Part shown: piece by piece, positions 26,147 through 42,740 of the stretch
Position numbering within the stretch: position 1 is the stretch's first letter
How the letters are laid out: each line of letters starts with the position of its first letter
NCBI GenBank assembly: GCA_006969905.1
Contig: CP030887.1
Span: 1,302,001 to 1,366,000 of the forward strand
Length of the DNA: 64,000 nt
From: Balneolaceae bacterium
GTDB taxonomy: Bacteria; Bacteroidota; Rhodothermia; Balneolales; Balneolaceae
Direction: 5' to 3'
The notes under the pieces: model-generated
Told to the model about the DNA's origin: nothing
Database searches by the model: none
What the model saw: only the letters and a program-made list of their open reading frames with translations
Translations under genes and position numbers: made by a program

Positions 26147-27190
26147 TTGCTCAAAAAATGCATGCATGCAACAAGTATTGTAATGGATGCTGAGGCCAGT
26201 TCACTTATGCTATTGGATGAAGCTACAGGTGAACTAAATGTGAGCATACCTACCGGGCCGGTTCAGGAGGAGATTGTTGGATTAAGCATCCCGAAAGATA
26301 AAGGGGTTGCCGGATGGGTTCTGAAAAACAACAACCCGTACATATCAAATGATATTAAAGAAAGCGATTTATTCTGGGGAGATTTAAGCGAAGATTTTGA
26401 AACCAGGAATATCATTTGTGTTCCACTTAAGAATGAAACAGGAAAGGGGTTTGGTGTCCTGCAGGCAATAAACAGGAAAGAAGGAAAAGACTTTAAAGAC
26501 AGTGATGTTTTTGTTTTTGAGACGTTAGCAGAGCATGTTGCCATCGCTATTGAAAGAGCCCAGCGGTATGATAAGCTGGTTCATAAGCTGGATGAAAAAA
26601 CCGTACAGCTTTCGGAGATTCATCATCGGCTAAAAAATAACCTGGCTACTATTTCAGCTCTCATTGAATTAGAGATGGATAAAGTGGAAGATGACTCAGT
26701 GCGTAAACTGATGAATACCACCAATTCCAGGATTAGGTCTGTAGCAAATGTCCACTCAATGCTTTACGATACTGAGCAATCAGGCGTAATTGATCTGAAA
26801 ATGTACCTTGGAAGTGTTATAAAAAATGTATCCAAGATTTATCAGGACGGGAGCAAAGAAATCCGGCTAAAGTATAATATAGCGGATTTGAAACTGGACG
26901 TTAACCGCGCGGTACTTTGCGGCCTGATACTTAACGAGCTTACGGTAAATGCATTCAAACATGCTTTCGATGATCGCGAAACGGGTAAAATTGATATTGA
27001 AGTAAATAATATTGCTAATGAGGAATTGATCATCAGGGTAAAAGACGATGGAGTTGGCATCCAGGAAAAAGGCGAAGGGATTTCCAGCTTTTTTATTATA
27101 AACGCGCTTTCAAGAAAGCTGAAAGCAAAAGTAAAAGCAGACGAGAACAAAGCGTCAGGTTTCTGTATCCAGGTCGGTTTTAAGCTGTAG
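26147..27190 (+). CDS. GAF-domain sensor histidine kinase, HisKA_2 type (5' end uncertain)
   Basis: Cytosolic sensor kinase with one GAF domain (about 1-140: DAEASSLMLLDEATGELN ... LAEHVAIAIERAQRYD). The phospho-acceptor segment LSEIHHRLKNNLATISALIELE (155-176) follows, then ATPase motifs NELTVNAFKHAF (263-274) and DDGVGI (300-305). The first canonical start codon in frame is a TTG at 26147, but the same frame is open back to 26015 and encodes plausible GAF sequence (LLHTVEGISRTFELKDLL) without any ATG, GTG or TTG. A run of seven A at 26049-26055 would, with one A fewer, join it to an ATG at 25978. No response regulator is adjacent. The 3' end overlaps the convergent monooxygenase gene by 11 bases. 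Confidence 0.8.
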   Translation: MLKKCMHATSIVMDAEASSLMLLDEATGELNVSIPTGPVQEEIVGLSIPKDKGVAGWVLKNNNPYISNDIKESDLFWGDLSEDFETRNIICVPLKNETGKGFGVLQAINRKEGKDFKDSDVFVFETLAEHVAIAIERAQRYDKLVHKLDEKTVQLSEIHHRLKNNLATISALIELEMDKVEDDSVRKLMNTTNSRIRSVANVHSMLYDTEQSGVIDLKMYLGSVIKNVSKIYQDGSKEIRLKYNIADLKLDVNRAVLCGLILNELTVNAFKHAFDDRETGKIDIEVNNIANEELIIRVKDDGVGIQEKGEGISSFFIINALSRKLKAKVKADENKASGFCIQVGFKL

Positions 27191-28340
27191 AAAATTCCTG
27201 TTCCGGTAATAATCCCTGCATGGTAAACTGGTGTGCCATTTTCTTTTTAAGGGGGGTATTTAGCATAAGGCGTAATACAGAATTTCGTAGAAATGGAAAA
27301 GTTCGTTTTCTGCCCAGTAGCATGTTGAGTTCGGCTCTTTTTGCAGCTTTAATCACCCTTTTGCGATGAGCATTTTCATAATGCTTCAATAGTGGAAGTT
27401 TGGATTCAGGAAAGGATAATACTTTTGAGAGCTCCCAGGCTCCGATCCACCCCAGGTTCATGCCCTGTCCGCCAATAGGGCTAACCACATGTGCAGAATC
27501 ACCACACAGAATAACACTGTCTTTGAAAAAGCTTTCAGCTATGAAATGCTGAACTCCAAAGCTGCTAAGCATGGTATTTTTTGCGACCGATAAATCGAAA
27601 TTGATTCGATCTTTTACCAATTCAACAATATCGTTTGCAGTTGCATTAGAATAGTACATATCTGTTTTTACAACCCATCTCCTCATCCCGTTTGGCAGCG
27701 GAAAACATTCGATCATTCCTTGCTTAGGCAGAAATACTGCTGCTTTATCTCCAAATGAGGTGATGTCTTCAAAATCACCCATTATATAGGTATCGGGGTA
27801 TCTTTTCCCTTCCAAAAGGATATCTGCTTTTTGCCGTATAAGGCTGTTTTTACCATCGCACCCAATTATATAAGATACTTTAATTTTTTTCGAGGTTTCT
27901 TCATGTGTATAAAAAACATTCACGCTCGTTTCATCAAAATGCAGGTCAAAAACCTGGGCTTCGGTGATTAGTTTGTCAGGTGCCAGGGCAAGAAATTCGT
28001 CCCTGAGAATCCGTTCGGTTTCAGACTGTGGGCAGGCCAAAATATAGTTGAAGGGCTTCGGGCAGGTGGACTCAAAATCGATAGTGCCCATTAAGGTTTG
28101 AGCATTATACGCCAGGCCTGTTTTGATTTTTAGTCCGGCTTTCAAAAAAGGTTCAATAACATCAAGTTGTTTAAATAACCTGAGAGACGGAGGGTGAATG
28201 CCCAATGACCTGGAATCGGGTACAGGGTTTTTACGTTTTTCAAGTATAAGGCAATCTGTTCCTTGTTTTATAAGACAGATTCCGAGAAACAGCCCAACAG
28301 GTCCGCCTCCTACAATTACTATTTCAGGTTTTTCACTCAT
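27180..28340 (-). CDS. FAD-dependent monooxygenase of the type III PKS cluster
   Basis: A group A flavoprotein aromatic hydroxylase-like protein of 386 residues. The N-terminal Rossmann motif VIVGGGPVGLFLG (8-20), the DG motif CDGKNSLIR (161-169) and the second FAD-binding motif GDSAHVVSPIGGQGMN (280-295) are all intact. The family hydroxylates phenols and similar rings with NAD(P)H and O2. It is the third gene of an overlapping operon after a type III polyketide synthase and a methyltransferase, so the likely substrate is a long-chain resorcinol, pyrone or quinol made by them. This matches the layout of the Streptomyces srsABC phenolic-lipid operon. The product here is an inference. Confidence 0.86.
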   Translation of the reverse strand: MSEKPEIVIVGGGPVGLFLGICLIKQGTDCLILEKRKNPVPDSRSLGIHPPSLRLFKQLDVIEPFLKAGLKIKTGLAYNAQTLMGTIDFESTCPKPFNYILACPQSETERILRDEFLALAPDKLITEAQVFDLHFDETSVNVFYTHEETSKKIKVSYIIGCDGKNSLIRQKADILLEGKRYPDTYIMGDFEDITSFGDKAAVFLPKQGMIECFPLPNGMRRWVVKTDMYYSNATANDIVELVKDRINFDLSVAKNTMLSSFGVQHFIAESFFKDSVILCGDSAHVVSPIGGQGMNLGWIGAWELSKVLSFPESKLPLLKHYENAHRKRVIKAAKRAELNMLLGRKRTFPFLRNSVLRLMLNTPLKKKMAHQFTMQGLLPEQEFSTA

Positions 28341-29064
28341 GATGCAGGTACATAAGTAAAAGGCGGAATGGGAACAAACTTTTTACCTGCCAGTTTTTGG
28401 GTGCAACCTGTTCCAGTTCTCTTTTAGTGAAAGACCTTTTGATAGAAATTAAACCATCAACAGGAACAAAAGATTTTCGATAGAACAGTCTTGAAAAGAC
28501 AGCAAAAAGCATATACCCGATATCGCTGCGCTCAATGTCATTAAAGATTACGCCTTTTGTTGCCAGAACCCGGGCTTGATCCAAAATGGAATTAACAGCT
28601 TCATCATCCAGGTGATGAAGTACATGATTTGAAATTACAAAGTCGAATTGTATTCCCTCAGTTACCAATTCAGAAGAGCTTTTATACTGAAAGGAAACAT
28701 TTTCAGGTACAGGCCGGGAGTTCACAAAGCGAAGAGCGCGGTGGTCTGTCTCAATGGCTGTTATTTTAAGATTGATGCCATCTCGTGCTGCCCATTTAGC
28801 AATTGAAACCGGAATATCTCCACCCCCAAAACCGATATCCAAAAGAGTGTATATTTTTTCTTTATCCGGCATAGCGGGCTGTAAGTACGTTCGGTAAATG
28901 GCATTCCATTTAGAAAGCAGCCCATTAATTTTGTAGAAATGTTTATATGTTTTTGCCAGTTTTTCAGGATCACAATCCTTCATATCCATCATCTCAACTA
29001 ACCCGGGTTGGCGGTTTTTCAGGAAGAAGGGCATATCAGCTAACCGAAAGTAACCCACTTTCAA
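28333..29064 (-). CDS. Class I SAM methyltransferase of the type III PKS cluster
   Basis: The 243-residue protein has the SAM-binding loop LLDIGFGGGDIP (74-85), an acidic strand-2 end (ITAIETDHRALRFV), and the post-core motif FDFVISNHVLHHLDDEAV. A C-terminal segment (SRLFYRKSFVPVDGLISIKRSF) is typical of small-molecule methyltransferases found beside type III polyketide synthases. Its start overlaps the end of the synthase gene by 29 bases and its stop overlaps the monooxygenase start by 8 bases. Translational coupling is therefore likely. The expected reaction is O- or C-methylation of the polyketide product. Confidence 0.85.
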   Translation of the reverse strand: MKVGYFRLADMPFFLKNRQPGLVEMMDMKDCDPEKLAKTYKHFYKINGLLSKWNAIYRTYLQPAMPDKEKIYTLLDIGFGGGDIPVSIAKWAARDGINLKITAIETDHRALRFVNSRPVPENVSFQYKSSSELVTEGIQFDFVISNHVLHHLDDEAVNSILDQARVLATKGVIFNDIERSDIGYMLFAVFSRLFYRKSFVPVDGLISIKRSFTKRELEQVAPKNWQVKSLFPFRLLLMYLHHE

Positions 29065-30130
29065 TGGTTAACCCAGGTCCAAACGCCATAGGCAGTATAG
29101 TAGAGCCTGATGGAAGGTCTTGCTCCATAAGTTCTTTGAGTACAAACAGTACAGTTGGGCTGCTCATGTTTCCATAGTTTGAAAGAACTGTTCTCGATGC
29201 CTCAACCTGTTTTTCCAAAAGGTTCAGCTCTTTAGCAACCTTATCGATGATAGACCTTCCTCCTGGGTGGATTGCCCAGTAGTCAATATCTTTTACAGTA
29301 AGTCCATAGTTTTGAACCAACGGGTTAATCACATCCGGTAAATTGGCTTTGATGATATCGGGCACATACGATGAAAGAACCATATCAAAACCCGTATCCC
29401 CGATTTCCCAGGCCATATCCTTTTCCCCGGTTTCTGTTAAAGAGGAAGCAAAACCTTTTACCTTAAACCCTTTTTTGGGTGAGGCTTTGGAAGAAACAAT
29501 CATGCCTGCAGAGCCATCCGCAAATACAGAACCGGATAGCAGGTTATCTACATCGGTCTTATCCTGGAAGTGCAACGTGCACAACTCCGTACAAATAACC
29601 ATCACTACCGCTTCCGGGTCAGAAATACAAAAAGCGTGTGCCATTTTAAGGGCAGGAAAGGCAGCATAGCATCCCATAAAACCCACATGAAAACGTTGAA
29701 CAGAATTTTTCAGGCCTAGTTTTTTTACTATATCATAGTCAGGCCCCGGCGCATAAAAGCCGGTACAGGATACTGTAATTACATGAGTAATGTCTTCTTT
29801 TAGGACCTGTTCATTATTGTCCAAAAGCTGTTGGCCAATGGTAACAAAAAGCTCTGAAGCTTTTTCTTTATAAAGCTCATTTCTTTTTCCTGTTGTTGGG
29901 GGTACACGTGTTTGGGTGCCGTTTAAAAAGAATATCCCTTCTTTTCCGGGATGAAAATCTTCAACTACTGAATGCCTTTTATTAATACCCGATTGGGAAT
30001 AGATCCTGTGAATAATGGCCTCTGTTTTCCGATCTTTTCCCAGGTAAGTTTTCATTTGTTCACGTATCTCCTGCTGGGGGCTAAATCCTTCAGGAACAGA
30101 GGTAGCAATATCGTGAATGAAAACCGGCAT
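29036..30130 (-). CDS. Type III polyketide synthase (chalcone/stilbene synthase family)
   Basis: A homodimeric ketosynthase that extends an acyl-CoA with malonyl-CoA to make pyrones or resorcinols. The catalytic triad is complete: Cys154 in HVGFMGCYAAFPALK, His288 in WAIHPGGRSI and Asn321 in LSNYGNMSSPTV. Other landmarks are TVSCTGFYAPGPDYDI, GSVFADGSAGMIV and the closing FGPGLTIESGLL. The length of 364 residues is normal. It is the first of three overlapping genes with a methyltransferase and an FAD monooxygenase. A MATE exporter lies 75 bases upstream on the same strand. Alkylresorcinol or alkylpyrone formation is the best guess for the reaction. Chain length and starter cannot be read from sequence. 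Confidence 0.95.
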   Translation of the reverse strand: MPVFIHDIATSVPEGFSPQQEIREQMKTYLGKDRKTEAIIHRIYSQSGINKRHSVVEDFHPGKEGIFFLNGTQTRVPPTTGKRNELYKEKASELFVTIGQQLLDNNEQVLKEDITHVITVSCTGFYAPGPDYDIVKKLGLKNSVQRFHVGFMGCYAAFPALKMAHAFCISDPEAVVMVICTELCTLHFQDKTDVDNLLSGSVFADGSAGMIVSSKASPKKGFKVKGFASSLTETGEKDMAWEIGDTGFDMVLSSYVPDIIKANLPDVINPLVQNYGLTVKDIDYWAIHPGGRSIIDKVAKELNLLEKQVEASRTVLSNYGNMSSPTVLFVLKELMEQDLPSGSTILPMAFGPGLTIESGLLSVS

Positions 30131-30205
30131 AAAAGAGAATACTAATTTGCTTCTGCTTTAACTAACCCCGTTTTATTAACAAGGATTCGATCCTGAAGTA
30201 AAAAA

Positions 30206-31555
30206 TCAATTATTTGATTTAGCTTTCGTCAGCAAATGAAACCTCAGGTTATGTAAAACCGCAGCTACGCTAAGCCCTGAGATCAAACCGATCCACAAAC
30301 CTTCAGGGCCAACAGCCATTTTAATTCCAAGGATATAACCTACCGGGAAGCCAATGATCCAGTATGAAATAAAGTTTACGACCATAGGAATGCGGGTATC
30401 TTTTAAACCACGAAGAGCGCCAAATCCTCCAACCTGTAACCCGTCTGAGATCTGGAAAACAGCGGCCATAAAGATCAGAGGAACAGCTAAGGCTATTACT
30501 GCAGGATCTTTAGTATAAATGCCGACAATAGTCTCGGGGATGGTAAAAAAGAGAACAGCTGTAATACACATAATAGCTGTACAAATGCCGGTTCCTAAAA
30601 ATCCTCGAAAGCGGGCTTTTTGTATGGAACTTTGCCCCACCGCTAAACCTACCCGCTGCGATATAGCCATCGATAAACCAAAAGGAATCATAAAGGCCAT
30701 AGCAGCAATATTTATTGCCACCTGGTGCGCAGCAGAGGCTGTTACACTCAGGGTCCCCATCAATACACTAACAGAAGCAAAAAGCAGAACTTCCATGGTT
30801 GAACTGGCACCATTAGGTACACCTACGTAGATAAGCTCCTTAATATATTTCCATTCCGGCCCCCTGGTTTTGGCATAGATATGAAAGCGTTTGAAAGGCT
30901 TGAAAGAAGCCGTGAAGCCAATCATGATGAGACCGGAAATAGTATATATAATGGCAGAGGCATATCCCGTGCCTGTAGCACCCATTGCAGGAAGGCCTAA
31001 CTTCCCATACATCAGGATGTAGTCAGCAGGAATGTTTATCAGTAAGGCAGAAAGTGCCACATACATAGAAGGACGGGTTACTGCCAGGCCCTCACTGAAG
31101 TACCTAAGCCCGGCAAAAATCAATAACCCCGGAATACCCCACGATATAGCCTTCAGGTAACCGGAGGCATAAGGGATGATCTCAGCATCAACATTTGTCC
31201 AGTGCATAACCAGGTCCAGGTTTCTTACCATAAAAAAAGAGGGGATGGTTAAAAAGGCGATAAGCCACAACATCTGGCGGGCGCTTTTTCCAATCTTATC
31301 AAATTTTCTTCCGCCTAATAATTGAGAAACGATGGGATTGATCGCTACTAAAGTAGCCATCCCAAATAGAGCAACAGGAAGGTATAATGCATTCCCTACG
31401 GCAACACCTGCCAAATCAGCAGCAGAAAGTCGCCCCGCCATAATAGTGTCTGTTACATTAAGCCCCATGCTAAGCAACTGGGTAGCAATAATAGGGGATC
31501 CCACCTTCAGAAGGGTTCCGGATTCTTTCTTTATTTCAGATAAGGAATAATTCAT
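30206..31555 (-). CDS. MATE-family multidrug/metabolite exporter
   Basis: A 449-residue inner-membrane antiporter with about twelve hydrophobic helices in two homologous halves. The N-terminal half has GSPIIATQLLSMGLNVTDTIMAGRLSAADLAGVAVGNALYLP, the characteristic MATE helix 1-2 region. The second half begins near KELIYVGVPNGASSTMEVLLF, and FGLSMAISQRVGLAVGQ is the repeat equivalent. Members export cationic drugs or metabolites with Na+ or H+. It is 75 bases upstream of the type III polyketide synthase and co-oriented, so it may export or detoxify the cluster product. It could equally be an independent drug pump. Confidence 0.9.
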   Translation of the reverse strand: MNYSLSEIKKESGTLLKVGSPIIATQLLSMGLNVTDTIMAGRLSAADLAGVAVGNALYLPVALFGMATLVAINPIVSQLLGGRKFDKIGKSARQMLWLIAFLTIPSFFMVRNLDLVMHWTNVDAEIIPYASGYLKAISWGIPGLLIFAGLRYFSEGLAVTRPSMYVALSALLINIPADYILMYGKLGLPAMGATGTGYASAIIYTISGLIMIGFTASFKPFKRFHIYAKTRGPEWKYIKELIYVGVPNGASSTMEVLLFASVSVLMGTLSVTASAAHQVAINIAAMAFMIPFGLSMAISQRVGLAVGQSSIQKARFRGFLGTGICTAIMCITAVLFFTIPETIVGIYTKDPAVIALAVPLIFMAAVFQISDGLQVGGFGALRGLKDTRIPMVVNFISYWIIGFPVGYILGIKMAVGPEGLWIGLISGLSVAAVLHNLRFHLLTKAKSNN

Positions 31556-31615: not shown

Positions 31616-34600
31616 CTAGTTTTGAAGAACAGGTAAAATTAAAGTGAACATAGTCCCGCCACCTTCTTTGGATTCAAATTGAATAGAACCCTTATGTTCT
31701 TCTACAATTTTTTTTACTATTGCGAGCCCCAAGCCGGTACCACTGGATTTTGTGCTGAAGTTAGGGACAAAAACAAGATGCTGGTGTTCTTTGGAAATAC
31801 CACTTCCTGTATCTGCCACAGATACTTTAACGTGTTTATTTTCAGGTTCTGACATAATGAGCGTAATAGCACCTCCTTCCGGCATAGCTTCAATTCCGTT
31901 CTTAACCAGGTTAATGAATACTCTCCTAAGTTCTTCTTTTACGCCATGAACGGTGACAGTTTTATCAGGGATCTGAGCAGCTATATGAATATTTTTTTCA
32001 TGAGTATAAAGTTCAACAACCTGCTCCAATACTTCATTAATAATAACAGGGGTAAATTCTTGTTCGATAGGTCGGGCAAAGTTAGAAAAATCAGAGGCTA
32101 TCCTACTCAGCGATTCTATTTGCTCTATGATATTCGTGTTAATTTTTGATATTTGCTCTTTGAGTAAATCAACAGGTACATCAGGGTTCTTAACCTGACG
32201 TTCTAAATGTTGAAGGCTGAGCTTCATAGGAGTAAGCGGATTTTTAATTTCATGTGCCACTTGTTGCGCCATCTCTTTCCATGCGGCTTCACGTTCAGCC
32301 TCAACCAGGTTTTGTTGTAACTCCTTCAGGCGGAATAACATCACATTATAGGCCTGAGTTAAAGCCCCGATTTCGTCCTGGCTTTTTACTTTAAGTACAT
32401 GGTCCAGGTTGCCATCAGAGATAGTTTTGATCCCGTCATTCAATTCTTCAATAGGCTGGGTCAGCTGGCCGGCGATATAAGAAGCAAAAGCAATAAAAAC
32501 CCCAAAAATAACTACAAAAAGCCCGATCAATAAACTTGTTGTAGACAAGAGCTGCTCCCTGAACATGGGCGCCCTCACAAAGGTAGGAATGGCTACAACA
32601 CTTACTATACTGCCTTCTTTTACAACTGGACGATAACCAATGAGCAATTCCTGGTTCCCAAAGGTAGTAGTAGTAATAAATTCTTCATTGCCATTATTGA
32701 TAAGGGCATCAAATACGCTCCAGGGAAGTTTTTCAGGTAAAATATTCTGCGTAAATATTTGGGGAGCTGTGGAAGCTGTTTCAGTCAGGTTAGAGAATAA
32801 AATTGCATCAGAGTTAAGTAACTCTGAAGAGTCAAAGATTATATCATTCACCTCTATATCCGGATTATCAGAGATGGATGAACTCAAACTCTTTAACCTG
32901 TTGGCCAGATCAGTTTTTACGGATTCTAAATTCTGCCCGGAAATGGTATAGTTAGAACTGATAATTAAAGTGAGCAAACATGCCAGGGAAGCTAAGATAA
33001 ACCTATCCGTAAGGCGGTCTTTAAATCGCGTTACGGTTCTGCCAAAAGCATGTGGAGCCTTCCAATAAAGCAAAGGGGAAAGTGCCAATACAATAATTAA
33101 AAGTGTGAGGTAGAACCGGGTTAATGAAAATGCGTGGTTTGCAAAGGTTACAGAGAAAGTGGCTGAACGAATAACAGTGCCGGATTTTGTTTTAATAAAT
33201 AACTCTTTTACTGGAGTATTATTTATAATTGAGCTTTGTATAAGTAATTGTTCAGCAGTTAAACTTCCAGAGAGTTCTTCATCAATAGCGAGGTAGCCAG
33301 GTACATCTAATGGTTTACCTATTATCCCTGTTAGTATTTGCCGATTGTTTTTGTATTCGCTGAGATCGATAGTTATGCTTAATTCACCGTTTTCTGGATA
33401 AGAAATAACAGTGCGAAATGGCTTTTGATACCGGGCCTTTTCTTTGTATACAGAGCATATGATCCATCCCAATCGGGTGTCATCCTCTATAGAAGCGAAA
33501 AAAGGAATCCAGGCCTGGCGGTATGAAGAGTATTGAACGGGGCTTCCTTCCAGTGGGTTCTGCCTGATAACAGGCCGTAGGCGTTCTCTGCGAATACGTT
33601 CTTGTTCAAAGGGGATCTCAAGGCTGAAAGTATCAAATGCTTTGGTCCAACCAGGAGCATTTAAATTTGTCGTGTATTCGGTAATTGGGTTTCCATCAAC
33701 ATCAATAAGTTGAAGAGATAACGAAAAAGATTGCCATTCATCTCTCATTAAGGCAAGGGTTTGCTCTTTGAGATAGGAGGTTATAAATGATTGCTGTTGC
33801 TGTAAATCAGTTAACTCCAGGGGAGTGATTTTTTGCTCCAGGTTGATTAGCAGGGTAACAGCTATTTCTTCGGCCAATGCTTCTTCTTCAAAATCAAAGG
33901 CCTGTGCAGCATCAAAAAGCTTTTGTTCACGATACTCGTTTTCACCGATCACAGAAGGGATATAACTTAGTATGGTAACAATAAAGCAGCCGGATAATAT
34001 CAGGCGTAACCAGGATATGTTTTGCCAGTGGATTCGTTTTGACCAAAAAAGAAAAGTAATCAAGGGAGTGAATACTACTACGCAGAAAGCAAGTGCAGAT
34101 ACCCACAAGGCATTTGAGATAACAAAAAACCAGGTCAGTAATCCGGAAAGAATTCCCACAAAACCAATTAAGGTAATGACGCCTAGTTGAAGCGAAGTAA
34201 AGCGAACATTGATCAGAAATAAACTTCCTGTAACCGCAAGTAAAGATGAGTACAAAATTGCTGAGAAAAGATAGAGTAAAGTGGTTTCCAGGGTAGGTAC
34301 TAAGTCCAGACCAAGTATGCTTAGGTTTGAAGCTTCAAAAATAGAGTAGATACCCTGAGAAATGATCAGAGAAAGTAACAGCGAACTAAAGCCGCCTAAA
34401 AAAGCCAGTATCGAAGATAGTACAGGGTTAAACAGGGTGGGAGGTTCATATTCACTTTTCAAAAAAAGTAACAGTGAAAAAGCAAACAAAGCTGAAAATA
34501 ATGAATGGACTCCAAGCTTGATTAATAAAAGTGCCTTATCCGGCTTTTCAAACAAAAGCTGAATTTCAAAAAAATCAATCAACCAAAGAAAAAGAAACCA

Positions 34601-35452
34601 CCCAAAGGCAATAGTTATTAGTTGCCTGGTAAAGAAGAATAGTGTTGAGCTTGTATAAGACCTTTGAAGAACAAATACGGCTCCGAAAACGAAAATGAGG
34701 GAAAGAAAAACAAAACGCCAAACAGCAGCATTTGTGGATCGGTCTTCCAGGTATTTTTCAAAATCATTTTCTAAGGCATAAATAAAACCAGTTGCGGGAT
34801 CATATTTAAAGGGAATGGGTGAGGAAAAGCTAGCGTCATCAGGGGGTGTTTCTGAAAAAGAGAAATATACCGGGTACGTACTGTTGAGATTAATGGCTTT
34901 CTGAACGGAAACCTCCGATGCGCCTCCGATTCCTAAAGTATTTGATTGGGAAAGGCGTTCAAGTGTTACCAAATGAATGGATATAGAATCTGTACCTGAA
35001 GAAGCCTGGAAGGATTTTTCACCCATTATGTATACCAGGTTGCCATCCCTGATGATGGTTGCAGAAAAAGGGAGATCGGTTATAAAAAGATCCGGGCGGT
35101 GTTCTCCTTTTGGAAACCCAGTCCAGGTAACAAGACTATCATTAAAGTAAACAAAGCTTCCCCAAAAAGAGTAATTCTCAATTATAAGATCATGGATTTG
35201 CCGGGGGTGAGCGTTATTTGCAGCTAGCTTTTGAATATCCTGGGAAAGCTGTTCATTTTGTGTCTCAAACTTTTGCACAAAACTTACGAAGGTATCCTTC
35301 GCTTGGTTTATACTTTCCTGCGCAAGATTTTGCCTTTCTTCGGGTGTAGGTAATGTTACAAAAAAGAGAAGCTCAAAGAGTGCATAAAGTATTATAATGC
35401 CTATCAAAAGAGAGGTATTTAACGAAATAGTATGCGCTGGTGAGGTGCTCAT
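31616..35452 (-). CDS. Very large NtrY-like membrane sensor histidine kinase
   Basis: A 1278-residue membrane kinase. One helix (about 14-34) precedes an extracytoplasmic region. A block of about eight helices (240-500) follows, then a second periplasmic region. Two more helices (about 790-850), a third periplasmic region and a final helix (about 955-980) lead to a HAMP domain (LTQPIEELNDGIKTISDGNLD). The kinase core has AWKEMAQQVAHEIKNPLTPMKL with phospho-acceptor His1067, NLVKNGIEAM, DTGSGI (about 1214-1219) and GTGLGLAIVKKIV. The AWKEMA-AHEIKNPLTP signature is that of NtrY. No ntrX-like response regulator is adjacent. The signal is unknown; the multihelix block may sense a membrane or lipid state. 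Confidence 0.87.
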   Translation of the reverse strand: MSTSPAHTISLNTSLLIGIIILYALFELLFFVTLPTPEERQNLAQESINQAKDTFVSFVQKFETQNEQLSQDIQKLAANNAHPRQIHDLIIENYSFWGSFVYFNDSLVTWTGFPKGEHRPDLFITDLPFSATIIRDGNLVYIMGEKSFQASSGTDSISIHLVTLERLSQSNTLGIGGASEVSVQKAINLNSTYPVYFSFSETPPDDASFSSPIPFKYDPATGFIYALENDFEKYLEDRSTNAAVWRFVFLSLIFVFGAVFVLQRSYTSSTLFFFTRQLITIAFGWFLFLWLIDFFEIQLLFEKPDKALLLIKLGVHSLFSALFAFSLLLFLKSEYEPPTLFNPVLSSILAFLGGFSSLLLSLIISQGIYSIFEASNLSILGLDLVPTLETTLLYLFSAILYSSLLAVTGSLFLINVRFTSLQLGVITLIGFVGILSGLLTWFFVISNALWVSALAFCVVVFTPLITFLFWSKRIHWQNISWLRLILSGCFIVTILSYIPSVIGENEYREQKLFDAAQAFDFEEEALAEEIAVTLLINLEQKITPLELTDLQQQQSFITSYLKEQTLALMRDEWQSFSLSLQLIDVDGNPITEYTTNLNAPGWTKAFDTFSLEIPFEQERIRRERLRPVIRQNPLEGSPVQYSSYRQAWIPFFASIEDDTRLGWIICSVYKEKARYQKPFRTVISYPENGELSITIDLSEYKNNRQILTGIIGKPLDVPGYLAIDEELSGSLTAEQLLIQSSIINNTPVKELFIKTKSGTVIRSATFSVTFANHAFSLTRFYLTLLIIVLALSPLLYWKAPHAFGRTVTRFKDRLTDRFILASLACLLTLIISSNYTISGQNLESVKTDLANRLKSLSSSISDNPDIEVNDIIFDSSELLNSDAILFSNLTETASTAPQIFTQNILPEKLPWSVFDALINNGNEEFITTTTFGNQELLIGYRPVVKEGSIVSVVAIPTFVRAPMFREQLLSTTSLLIGLFVVIFGVFIAFASYIAGQLTQPIEELNDGIKTISDGNLDHVLKVKSQDEIGALTQAYNVMLFRLKELQQNLVEAEREAAWKEMAQQVAHEIKNPLTPMKLSLQHLERQVKNPDVPVDLLKEQISKINTNIIEQIESLSRIASDFSNFARPIEQEFTPVIINEVLEQVVELYTHEKNIHIAAQIPDKTVTVHGVKEELRRVFINLVKNGIEAMPEGGAITLIMSEPENKHVKVSVADTGSGISKEHQHLVFVPNFSTKSSGTGLGLAIVKKIVEEHKGSIQFESKEGGGTMFTLILPVLQN

Positions 35453-41001: not shown

Positions 41002-41074
41002 GCCAGTGTAGCTCAGTTGGTAGAGCAACGGTTTTGTAAACCGTCGGTCGTCGGTTCGAATCCGGCCACTGGCT
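41002..41074 (+). tRNA. tRNA-Thr (anticodon TGT)
   Basis: The cloverleaf has a 7-bp acceptor stem GCCAGTG/CACTGGC, D arm GCTC-AGTTGGTA-GAGC, anticodon stem ACGGT/ACCGT with loop TTTGTAA (anticodon TGT), and T arm with GGTTCGAATCC. The discriminator base is T and CCA is not encoded. It decodes ACA (and by wobble ACG). Confidence 0.97.
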
Positions 41075-41088
41075 CATTCGGGAAAAAT

Positions 41089-41171
41089 GGGGAGATACCA
41101 AAGTGGCCAACTGGGGCAGACTGTAAATCTGTTGTCGTAAGACTTCGTAGGTTCGAATCCTGCTCTCCCCA
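41089..41171 (+). tRNA. tRNA-Tyr (anticodon GTA)
   Basis: Class II tRNA with acceptor stem GGGGAGA/TCTCCCC, anticodon loop CTGTAAA (anticodon GTA), a long variable arm (about 41129-41146, GTTGTCGTAAGACTTC) and T loop GTTCGAATCC. The discriminator is A. As a GUN-anticodon tRNA for Tyr, it is a substrate for queuosine, the pathway of the nearby queA. Confidence 0.97.
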
Positions 41172-41176
41172 CGCTA

Positions 41177-41249
41177 GCGAGCGTAACTCAATTGGTAGAG
41201 TGTCAGCCTTCCAAGCTGAATGTTGCCGGTTCGATCCCGGTCGCTCGCT
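41177..41249 (+). tRNA. tRNA-Gly (anticodon TCC)
   Basis: Acceptor stem GCGAGCG/CGCTCGC, D arm with ACTC-AATTGGTA-GAGT, anticodon stem CAGCC/AGCTG region with loop bearing TCC, and T arm GGTTCGATCCC. Discriminator T; CCA not encoded. Confidence 0.96.
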
Positions 41250-41257
41250 CAGGTGAT

Positions 41258-41329
<72 letters not shown>

Positions 41330-41386
41330 CTGGTCGATAATCGTTAATCGTTTTTTTAATAATCAACAATCAATAAGTTTTAAATC

Positions 41387-42574
41387 ATGGCAAAAGAGAC
41401 CTTTCAGCGAACCAAGCCCCACGTGAATGTGGGAACGATCGGGCACGTAGATCACGGCAAGACCACGTTGACGGCGGCGATTACGGCAGTAATGGCCAAG
41501 GCCCACGGTGGGGAAGCCCGCGCCTTTGATCAAATTGATAATGCTCCCGAAGAGCGCGAGCGCGGGATTACCATCGCCACGGCGCACGTGGAGTACGAGA
41601 CCGAGGCACGCCACTACGCCCACGTAGACTGCCCCGGGCACGCTGACTACGTAAAGAACATGGTAACGGGAGCCGCCCAGATGGACGGGGCTATTTTGGT
41701 GGTAGCGGCAACCGATGGTCCGATGCCACAAACCCGCGAGCACATCCTGCTAGCGCGCCAGGTTGGGGTACCCGAGATTGTGGTATTCATGAACAAAGTA
41801 GACCTGGTAGACGACGAAGAATTACTAGAGCTGGTAGAGTTGGAAGTACGAGAGCTGCTCAGCAGCTACGAGTTCAACGGCGACGACATCCCGGTGATCC
41901 AGGGCTCGGCCCTGGGCGCCCTCAACGGGGAAGCCCAGTGGGAAGAGAAAGTAGTTGAGCTCATGAACGCGGTAGACGAGACCATCCCAACGCCAACCCG
42001 CGACGTAGACAAGCCCTTCCTGATGCCGGTAGAAGACGTATTCAGTATTACCGGGCGTGGAACGGTAGCCACCGGGCGTATTGAGCGCGGGGTGCTAAAG
42101 CTCAACGAAGAGATTGAAATTGTAGGGATCGTGGAAGCCCCGCTAAAGAGTGTGGTAACCGGGATCGAGATGTTCCGCAGGCTGCTCGACCAGGGCCAGG
42201 CAGGCGACAACGCAGGGATCCTGATGCGCGGGATCAACAAAGACGACATCCAGCGCGGGATGGTACTGTGTAAGCCGGGTTCGATCACCCCGCACAAGAA
42301 ATTCGAGTGCGAGGTATACGTGCTGAGCAAAGACGAAGGCGGGCGGCACACCCCGTTTTTCAAAGGCTACCGCCCGCAGTTCTACTTCCGTACGACCGAT
42401 GTGACCGGGGCATGTGAGCTGCCGAGTGGGGTAGAGATGGTGATGCCGGGCGACAACGTGAAGTTGGATGTAGAGTTGATCCAGCCGGTGGCGATGGAAG
42501 AAGGCCTGAGGTTTGCGATCCGCGAGGGCGGGCGAACTGTAGGTGCCGGTGTGGTAACTAAAATCCTAGATTAA
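41387..42574 (+). CDS. tuf: Translation elongation factor Tu
   Basis: EF-Tu delivers aminoacyl-tRNA to the ribosome as a GTPase. The 395-residue protein has G1 GHVDHGKTT (about 18-26), the switch I sequence [10 protein letters not shown]3 [10 protein letters not shown]4 NKVD (about 135-138) and SALGAL. Domains 2 and 3 carry [21 protein letters not shown] and PGDNVKL. The gene is notably G+C rich (34 of 60 bases in 42301-42360) next to neighbours near 42-45%, and it favours codons such as GGG, CGC, GCC and GTA. It stands between the tRNA block and tRNA-Trp, upstream of secE, in the conserved order. Confidence 0.98.
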
Positions 42575-42599
42575 GGATTAGTCTTTACTTACTGAAATT

Positions 42600-42639
42600 G
42601 CGGGATAAGAGTAGGTGGTTTTGCCATCTACTCTTCCGC
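42600..42639 (+). promoter_or_regulatory. Long hairpin between tuf and tRNA-Trp
   Basis: AAGAGTAGGTGG (42607-42618) pairs with CCATCTACTCTT (42624-42635), twelve base pairs with one wobble and a TTTTG loop. An outer GCGG/CCGC stem is set off by a GAT bulge. No T run follows, so it looks like a processing or mRNA 3'-end stability structure rather than a classical terminator. Confidence 0.6.
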
Positions 42640-42645
42640 GTATAA

Positions 42646-42718
42646 ACGGGCGTAGCTCAGTTGGTAGAGCACTGGTCTCCAAAACCAGGTGTCGGGAGTT
42701 CGAGTCTCTCCGCCCGTG
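42646..42718 (+). tRNA. tRNA-Trp (anticodon CCA)
   Basis: Acceptor stem ACGGGCG/CGCCCGT, D arm GCTC-AGTTGGTA-GAGC, anticodon stem CTGGT/ACCAG with loop CTCCAAA (anticodon CCA), and T arm GAGTTCGAGTCTC. Discriminator G. Lies 22 bases before secE in the typical tuf-trnW-secE order. Confidence 0.97.
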
Positions 42719-42740
42719 CAAAACAAGTTAAAAAAGAAAC

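Follow-up and report, generated by a model that had tools for sequence, protein, structure and literature searches.

Phenolic lipids made by type III polyketide synthases (PKS) are usually viewed as patchy secondary metabolites, and their purpose is unsettled. Several described gene sets, cited here and below from those parts of the papers that were available, come close to an operon for a type III PKS, a methyltransferase and a flavin adenine dinucleotide (FAD)-dependent enzyme that lies in a 64,000-nucleotide stretch (the window, whose positions are used as coordinates below) of contig CP030887.1 of Balneolaceae bacterium. Operons of three comparable genes are the source of alkylresorcinols in planctomycetes and of hierridin in Cyanobium (PMC10896814). 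The planctomycete PKS products are pentadecyl- and heptadecylresorcinols, and co-expression of the methyltransferase gene and the gene for the oxidoreductase, which is FAD-dependent as well, leads to methylated and probably C-methylated products (PMC10896814). Deletion of the planctomycete PKS affected neither growth nor the response to beta-lactams (PMC10896814), and therefore penicillin resistance, the phenotype of the srs genes, is not to be assumed for the operon studied here. In the agq system of Actinoplanes missouriensis, the work of an alkylresorcinol synthase is accompanied by prenylation and hydroxylation (PMC10896814), and the products of the system are given in a title within reference lists as alkyl-O-dihydrogeranyl-methoxyhydroquinones. 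The loseolamycin locus of Micromonospora endolithica is similar in that UbiA, methyltransferase and type III PKS (losA) genes stand close together, but it differs by an acyl-CoA dehydrogenase in between and by the lack of a flavin hydroxylase in the available part of the gene table (PMC7587189).

The operon in the window resembles srsABC of Streptomyces griseus in function, as both comprise a PKS, a methyltransferase and a flavin monooxygenase, the likeness between SrsC and the FAD_binding_3 enzyme of the window being taken from descriptions of what they do. However, the methyltransferase of the window belongs to class I (PRK06202), whereas SrsB is an isoprenylcysteine carboxyl methyltransferase (PMC6669644). 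A first-pass annotation of this DNA had called the genes the same set as srsABC, which did not hold, and strict srs membership was rejected because the methyltransferase family differs from that of SrsB. By gene content, hidABC and the corresponding planctomycete operon are the nearest published systems, together with agq in those cases in which a UbiA prenyltransferase is added; they fit the gene content better than srsABC. Like the window, hidABC and the planctomycete operon hold PKS, methyltransferase and oxidoreductase genes in one tight operon, a correspondence of function and not of sequence. The usual published order is methyltransferase-oxidoreductase-PKS, but the order hidC>hidA>hidB, which is that of the window, is on record for cyanobacteria (PMC8086630). 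Moreover, the available descriptions of these operons contain no MATE or kinase gene, and the window-type operon differs from them in being nearly universal in a family. The likeness to agq lies in an alkylresorcinol synthase going along with prenylation and hydroxylation; the difference is that the UbiA gene of the window's genome is unlinked to the operon (G000:C1:1987734-1988612), and it is likened to agq by family and not by the sequence of AgqD. The agq gene list reportedly includes a methyltransferase and a UbiA-type enzyme. By analogy of gene content, the trio would be sufficient for a decorated alkylresorcinol and is of the same type as the hierridin and planctomycete systems, extended in the manner of agq.

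As judged from sequence, we consider it likely, although well short of certain, that the operon as a whole is a phenolic-lipid pathway. The PKS would join a long-chain fatty acyl starter with three malonyl units and close the ring by aldol condensation, yielding a 5-alkylresorcinol, which the FAD enzyme would hydroxylate on the ring and the methyltransferase would methylate once or several times, at O or at C. The product, an alkyl hydroquinone or methoxyquinone, could be kept in the membrane or moved across it, perhaps via the MATE pump, and in UbiA-bearing genomes, that of the window included, the ring would probably also be prenylated in an agq-like manner. The most likely product is thus predicted to be a hydroxylated and methylated long-chain 5-alkylresorcinol, which may take the form of a quinone and would in some species bear a prenyl group. 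The product class proposed by the first-pass annotation, a methylated, hydroxylated alkylresorcinol or quinone, is the best-supported reading, apart from the identity with srsABC. The three genes are:

29036..30130, minus strand: type III polyketide synthase, 364 amino acids (Pfam PF02797/PF00195, triad, fold), predicted long-chain alkylresorcinol synthase
28333..29034, minus strand: class I S-adenosylmethionine-dependent methyltransferase, 233 amino acids (NCBIfam NF004851 PRK06202), with the start common to relatives
27180..28340, minus strand: group A FAD-dependent aromatic hydroxylase, 386 amino acids (Pfam FAD_binding_3, motifs)

Together with the MATE gene that precedes the PKS gene by 75 bases, they follow each other almost without gaps on the minus strand, so that the position of the four genes and the leading place of the pump are as annotated before. 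The end-to-end overlap proposed for the trio applies to one junction, where the methyltransferase stop and the ATG of the FAD gene share 8 bases (28340-28333), but not to the other, where one base lies between the PKS stop and the methyltransferase ATG (29034). The methyltransferase open reading frame opens at TTG 29064 (243 amino acids); since relatives share ATG 29034, beginning MPFFL (233 amino acids), the two genes do not overlap. The source genome, a single contig of 3.49 Mb, contains one PKS of this kind.

The PKS matches Pfam Chal_sti_synt_N and Chal_sti_synt_C far above cut-off. It has the chalcone-synthase fold and, as the first-pass annotation had noticed, a complete Cys-His-Asn triad (Cys154, His288, Asn321), which is invariant in 26/26 and 28/28 homologues of two alignments, and it is therefore a type III PKS. 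Its AlphaFold2 model (mean predicted local distance difference test, pLDDT, 92.6) finds 4b0n, the M. marinum enzyme 7cb3 and PKS18 as best PDB folds, with template modelling (TM) scores of about 0.9. In pairwise alignment T123, A127 and C184 stand opposite Thr144, Ala148 and Cys205 of PKS18, the first two of which presumably line the acyl tunnel. All 28 aligned homologues keep T123 and C184, some of them have N, S or T in place of A127, and Cys205 is named as an acyl-tunnel residue in a figure legend (PMC6274091). Trp241, invariant in 28/28 homologues, faces Leu266 of PKS18 in pairwise alignment. In ArsB the tryptophan W281 steers the enzyme to resorcinols, and the exchange G284W shifts ArsC towards resorcinols (PMC6274091). 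We infer that Trp241 and W281 occupy the same column.

The methyltransferase matches Pfam Methyltransf_25/11 and exceeds the cut-off of its NCBIfam model (270 bits against 243), a family that is labelled "hypothetical protein" only. With its model (pLDDT 93.5), the best matches of the fold search mix methyltransferase kinds at 9-17% identity and give no signal for C- versus O-methylation; a PDB profile search returned weak matches only (best E 4e-9), and the Pfam and NCBIfam scans gave no match to an isoprenylcysteine-type family. The FAD protein (Pfam FAD_binding_3, 162 bits) shows GGGPVG, CDG and GDSAHVVSPIGGQGMN in alignment A6, which we take to be motifs of single-component aromatic hydroxylases. 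The single-component FAD fold and the GxGxxG, DG and GD motifs make it a group A flavoprotein aromatic hydroxylase; its nearest PDB sequence is rifampin monooxygenase 5vqb.

Within Balneolaceae 92 genomes were searched, 66 of them good (at least 90% complete, at most 5% contaminated). A PKS match was found in 87/92, or in 85/92 without G036 and G069, which have FabH-like matches only; with FabH-like matches removed, 64/66 good genomes are positive. The methyltransferase is present in 85/92 (63/66 good) and the FAD enzyme in 84/92 (63/66 good). No gene of the trio was found in G036 and G069, the PKS was the only one found in G061, and G005 has its FAD gene on a different contig. Among the 33 best-scoring family loci, a set that includes the own genome and is biased to close kin, the PKS gene is accompanied by the methyltransferase gene in 33/33, the FAD gene in 32/33 and the MATE gene in 28/33, two of the five misses (L017, L024) being contig ends. 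Since these neighbours recur across most or all of the 33 loci, the grouping of the four genes is not due to chance. Almost every Balneolaceae species keeps the trio, which thus looks like part of the standard outfit of the family and not like an accessory.

The trio is also found beyond the family. Among named loci, the best 80 of at least 590 confirmed stretches (at least 594 found with alignment A1 as query; no census, and partly shared with the family loci), there are 57 in which both partners lie no more than 4 kb from the PKS gene and on its strand; a contig scan with a single PKS sequence as query gave no matches. Of these 80 loci, 47 belong to Actinomycetota and form one clade in a quick tree (Shimodaira-Hasegawa approximate likelihood ratio test, SH-aLRT, 98), most of the eight Verrucomicrobiota loci in the tree have a PKS gene without methyltransferase and FAD partners, and no cyanobacterial or planctomycete title occurs. 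A sample of 392 genomes of the phylum contains 114 PKS-positive ones at our threshold of E below 1e-50, the negatives including FabH-like and other PKS-like matches of about 1e-30 to 1e-48; outside the family, FAD and methyltransferase genes were searched for in 76/392 genomes, chosen for PKS matches. In one locus from another family of the phylum (L053, genome G182), a PKS-like gene of more remote relationship is grouped with FAD, methyltransferase, short-chain dehydrogenase, ketosynthase and apparent phosphopantetheinyl transferase genes, a cluster that is larger and different in kind.

A link to prenylation comes from one UbiA subfamily. Three genes of the UbiA family occur in the window's genome; as read by eye, one stands beside an apparent heme A synthase gene and another beside an apparent menC, and the third is the unlinked gene named above, which shares 27-30% identity with the cluster type but only 15-17% with the other two. 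The profile of this subfamily (A3) was built from four rows, one of them this genome's own copy, and finds it in 64/392 phylum genomes, all 64 of which are PKS-positive (Fisher p 2e-42, with no phylogenetic correction). Outside Balneolaceae UbiA adjoins the PKS gene in 19/26 genomes, within five families it is present in 14/14 PKS-positive and 0/20 PKS-negative listed genomes, and at family level each of the nine families with UbiA is also one of the 21 with the PKS, out of at least 57 families (hypergeometric 3e-5). In Balneolaceae 73/92 genomes (53/66 good) carry it. The named-locus genomes have it in 7/24 cases, namely in 6/6 Cytophagales-like and one Trueperaceae genome, but in 0/11 Actinomycetota and 0/6 others. 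UbiA, PKS, methyltransferase and FAD protein genes stand together in the Cytophagales-like loci L046 and L050, UbiA adjoins the PKS gene in L045, and in L108 (Trueperaceae) it lies beside PKS and FAD genes. UbiA is thus an add-on that tracks the trio. One copy (G081:C45:4845-5342) has three in-frame TAA codons and is apparently decaying.

Several observations weigh against the phenolic-lipid pathway as proposed. UbiA is missing from 6/8 genomes of the window's genus and from 10/48 family genomes that are PKS-positive in the phylum sample, and because of the latter prenylation cannot be general. Conversely, G069 (94% complete, 310 contigs) has UbiA and no trio, as do the less complete G033 and G066, and because of G069 a strict rule of no UbiA without a synthase was given up. 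The FAD protein of the Cytophagales-like loci belongs to a different, geranylgeranyl-reductase-like branch that is about 20% identical to the window's enzyme (L046 6584-7708 and L050 6719-7846: TIGR02032, 93-101 bits, cut-off 158.8); it could, by its sequence, reduce the prenyl chain and may not correspond to the hydroxylase of the window. In the available part of the planctomycete study, what the FAD enzyme does is left unexplained (PMC10896814).

Among NCBIfam models the PKS scores best with that of DpgA, a malonyl-starter enzyme, so that a short starter is possible, although DpgA was rejected as the identity of the PKS with 154 bits, far below the cut-off of 425. A malonyl or short starter would yield a small ring, as with DpgA or a phloroglucinol synthase, to which UbiA would add a polyprenyl chain, giving a polyketide-derived ubiquinone analogue. 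This would go along with the nearest PDB sequence and fold, the Ectocarpus enzyme 4b0n, whose role we take to be tied to phlorotannin monomers, and with UbiA, methyltransferase and flavin hydroxylase being the tool set of ubiquinone synthesis. However, the PKS18-type tunnel residues are kept, the 10/48 family genomes without UbiA would be left with a small soluble phenol, and 11/11 searched PKS-bearing Actinomycetota genomes lack a UbiA of this type, which makes such a product unlikely. The same 10/48 genomes would suit a true srs-type pathway, in which an alkylresorcinol is O-methylated by an SrsB-like enzyme and hydroxylated to a quinone with no prenyl group, and PKS and flavin hydroxylase are of the right general kinds. 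This pathway fails on the methyltransferase family, as the class I enzyme gives no isoprenylcysteine-type match and is unlike SrsB (PMC6669644), and we regard it as improbable, but its product chemistry could still coincide. That the PKS makes alkylpyrones instead of resorcinols could be read from the nearest solved bacterial folds, as PKS18, a pyrone maker, and the enzyme of M. marinum rank at the top. It is very improbable, since PKS18 has Leu in place of the invariant Trp241 and since an aromatic ring is what the partners, a ring hydroxylase and UbiA, would require.

The general kind of this pathway is already known, here in the form of a well-conserved operon. New are the near-universal presence of the synthase in Balneolaceae, the same trio in 57 of the best 80 named loci, one UbiA subfamily that tracks the synthase across the phylum, and the unlinked prenyltransferase partner in the window's genome; a search confined to open-licence papers found no printed report of such a pathway in this lineage. 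The retention in the same neighbourhood by almost every species of the family makes the natural role addressable by one deletion, and the tie between synthase and UbiA names a concrete prenylation step. As a speculative and rather unlikely extension of the phenolic-lipid reading, the product could be a core redox lipid of Balneolaceae, a partly prenylated polyketide methoxy-hydroquinone/quinone that would serve beside menaquinone as second electron carrier or antioxidant, with UbiA, a class I methyltransferase and a flavin hydroxylase, a tool set resembling that for ubiquinone, acting on a polyketide ring. A precedent exists in the polyketide quinones of mycobacterial respiration (Anand et al., 2015, cited in PMC10896814).

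The genes surrounding the trio are:

30206..31555, minus strand: MATE family efflux transporter, 449 amino acids (Pfam MatE, NCBIfam matE), candidate exporter or unrelated drug pump
31616..35452, minus strand: large membrane sensor histidine kinase, 1278 amino acids (read by eye), candidate regulator
26147-27190, plus strand: GAF-HisKA_2 histidine kinase gene (Pfam), convergent with the FAD gene

In transcription order on the minus strand, the sensor kinase (35452-31616) is followed after 60 bases by MATE (31555-30206) and then by PKS (30130-29036), methyltransferase (29034-28333) and FAD gene (28340-27180), the 3' end of which overlaps the convergent kinase gene by 11 bases. The order kinase-MATE-PKS-methyltransferase-FAD recurs in eight Balneolales loci (L035, L036, L058, L059, L061, L062, L067, L088), and an apparent aconitase gene, read by eye, lies downstream in the recurring neighbourhood, which together argues for vertical inheritance. 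The transporter scores 188 bits with Pfam MatE and 270 bits with NCBIfam matE (cut-off 147.4). Among the named loci inspected it stands beside the PKS gene only in Balneolales and never beside the same trio in Actinomycetota, so that it is a possible exporter of the product with a link confined to Balneolales. The sensor kinase is a possible regulator of the operon; no response regulator lies beside it among the open reading frames listed for the window. Scans for promoters (13 sites, with shuffles predicting 22.3) and terminators (14, with 9.6 predicted) were not used as evidence. Five tRNA genes are clustered at 41002-42719 (plus strand), and in many assemblies of relatives the contig ends about 10-13 kb from the PKS gene, perhaps at this tRNA stretch.

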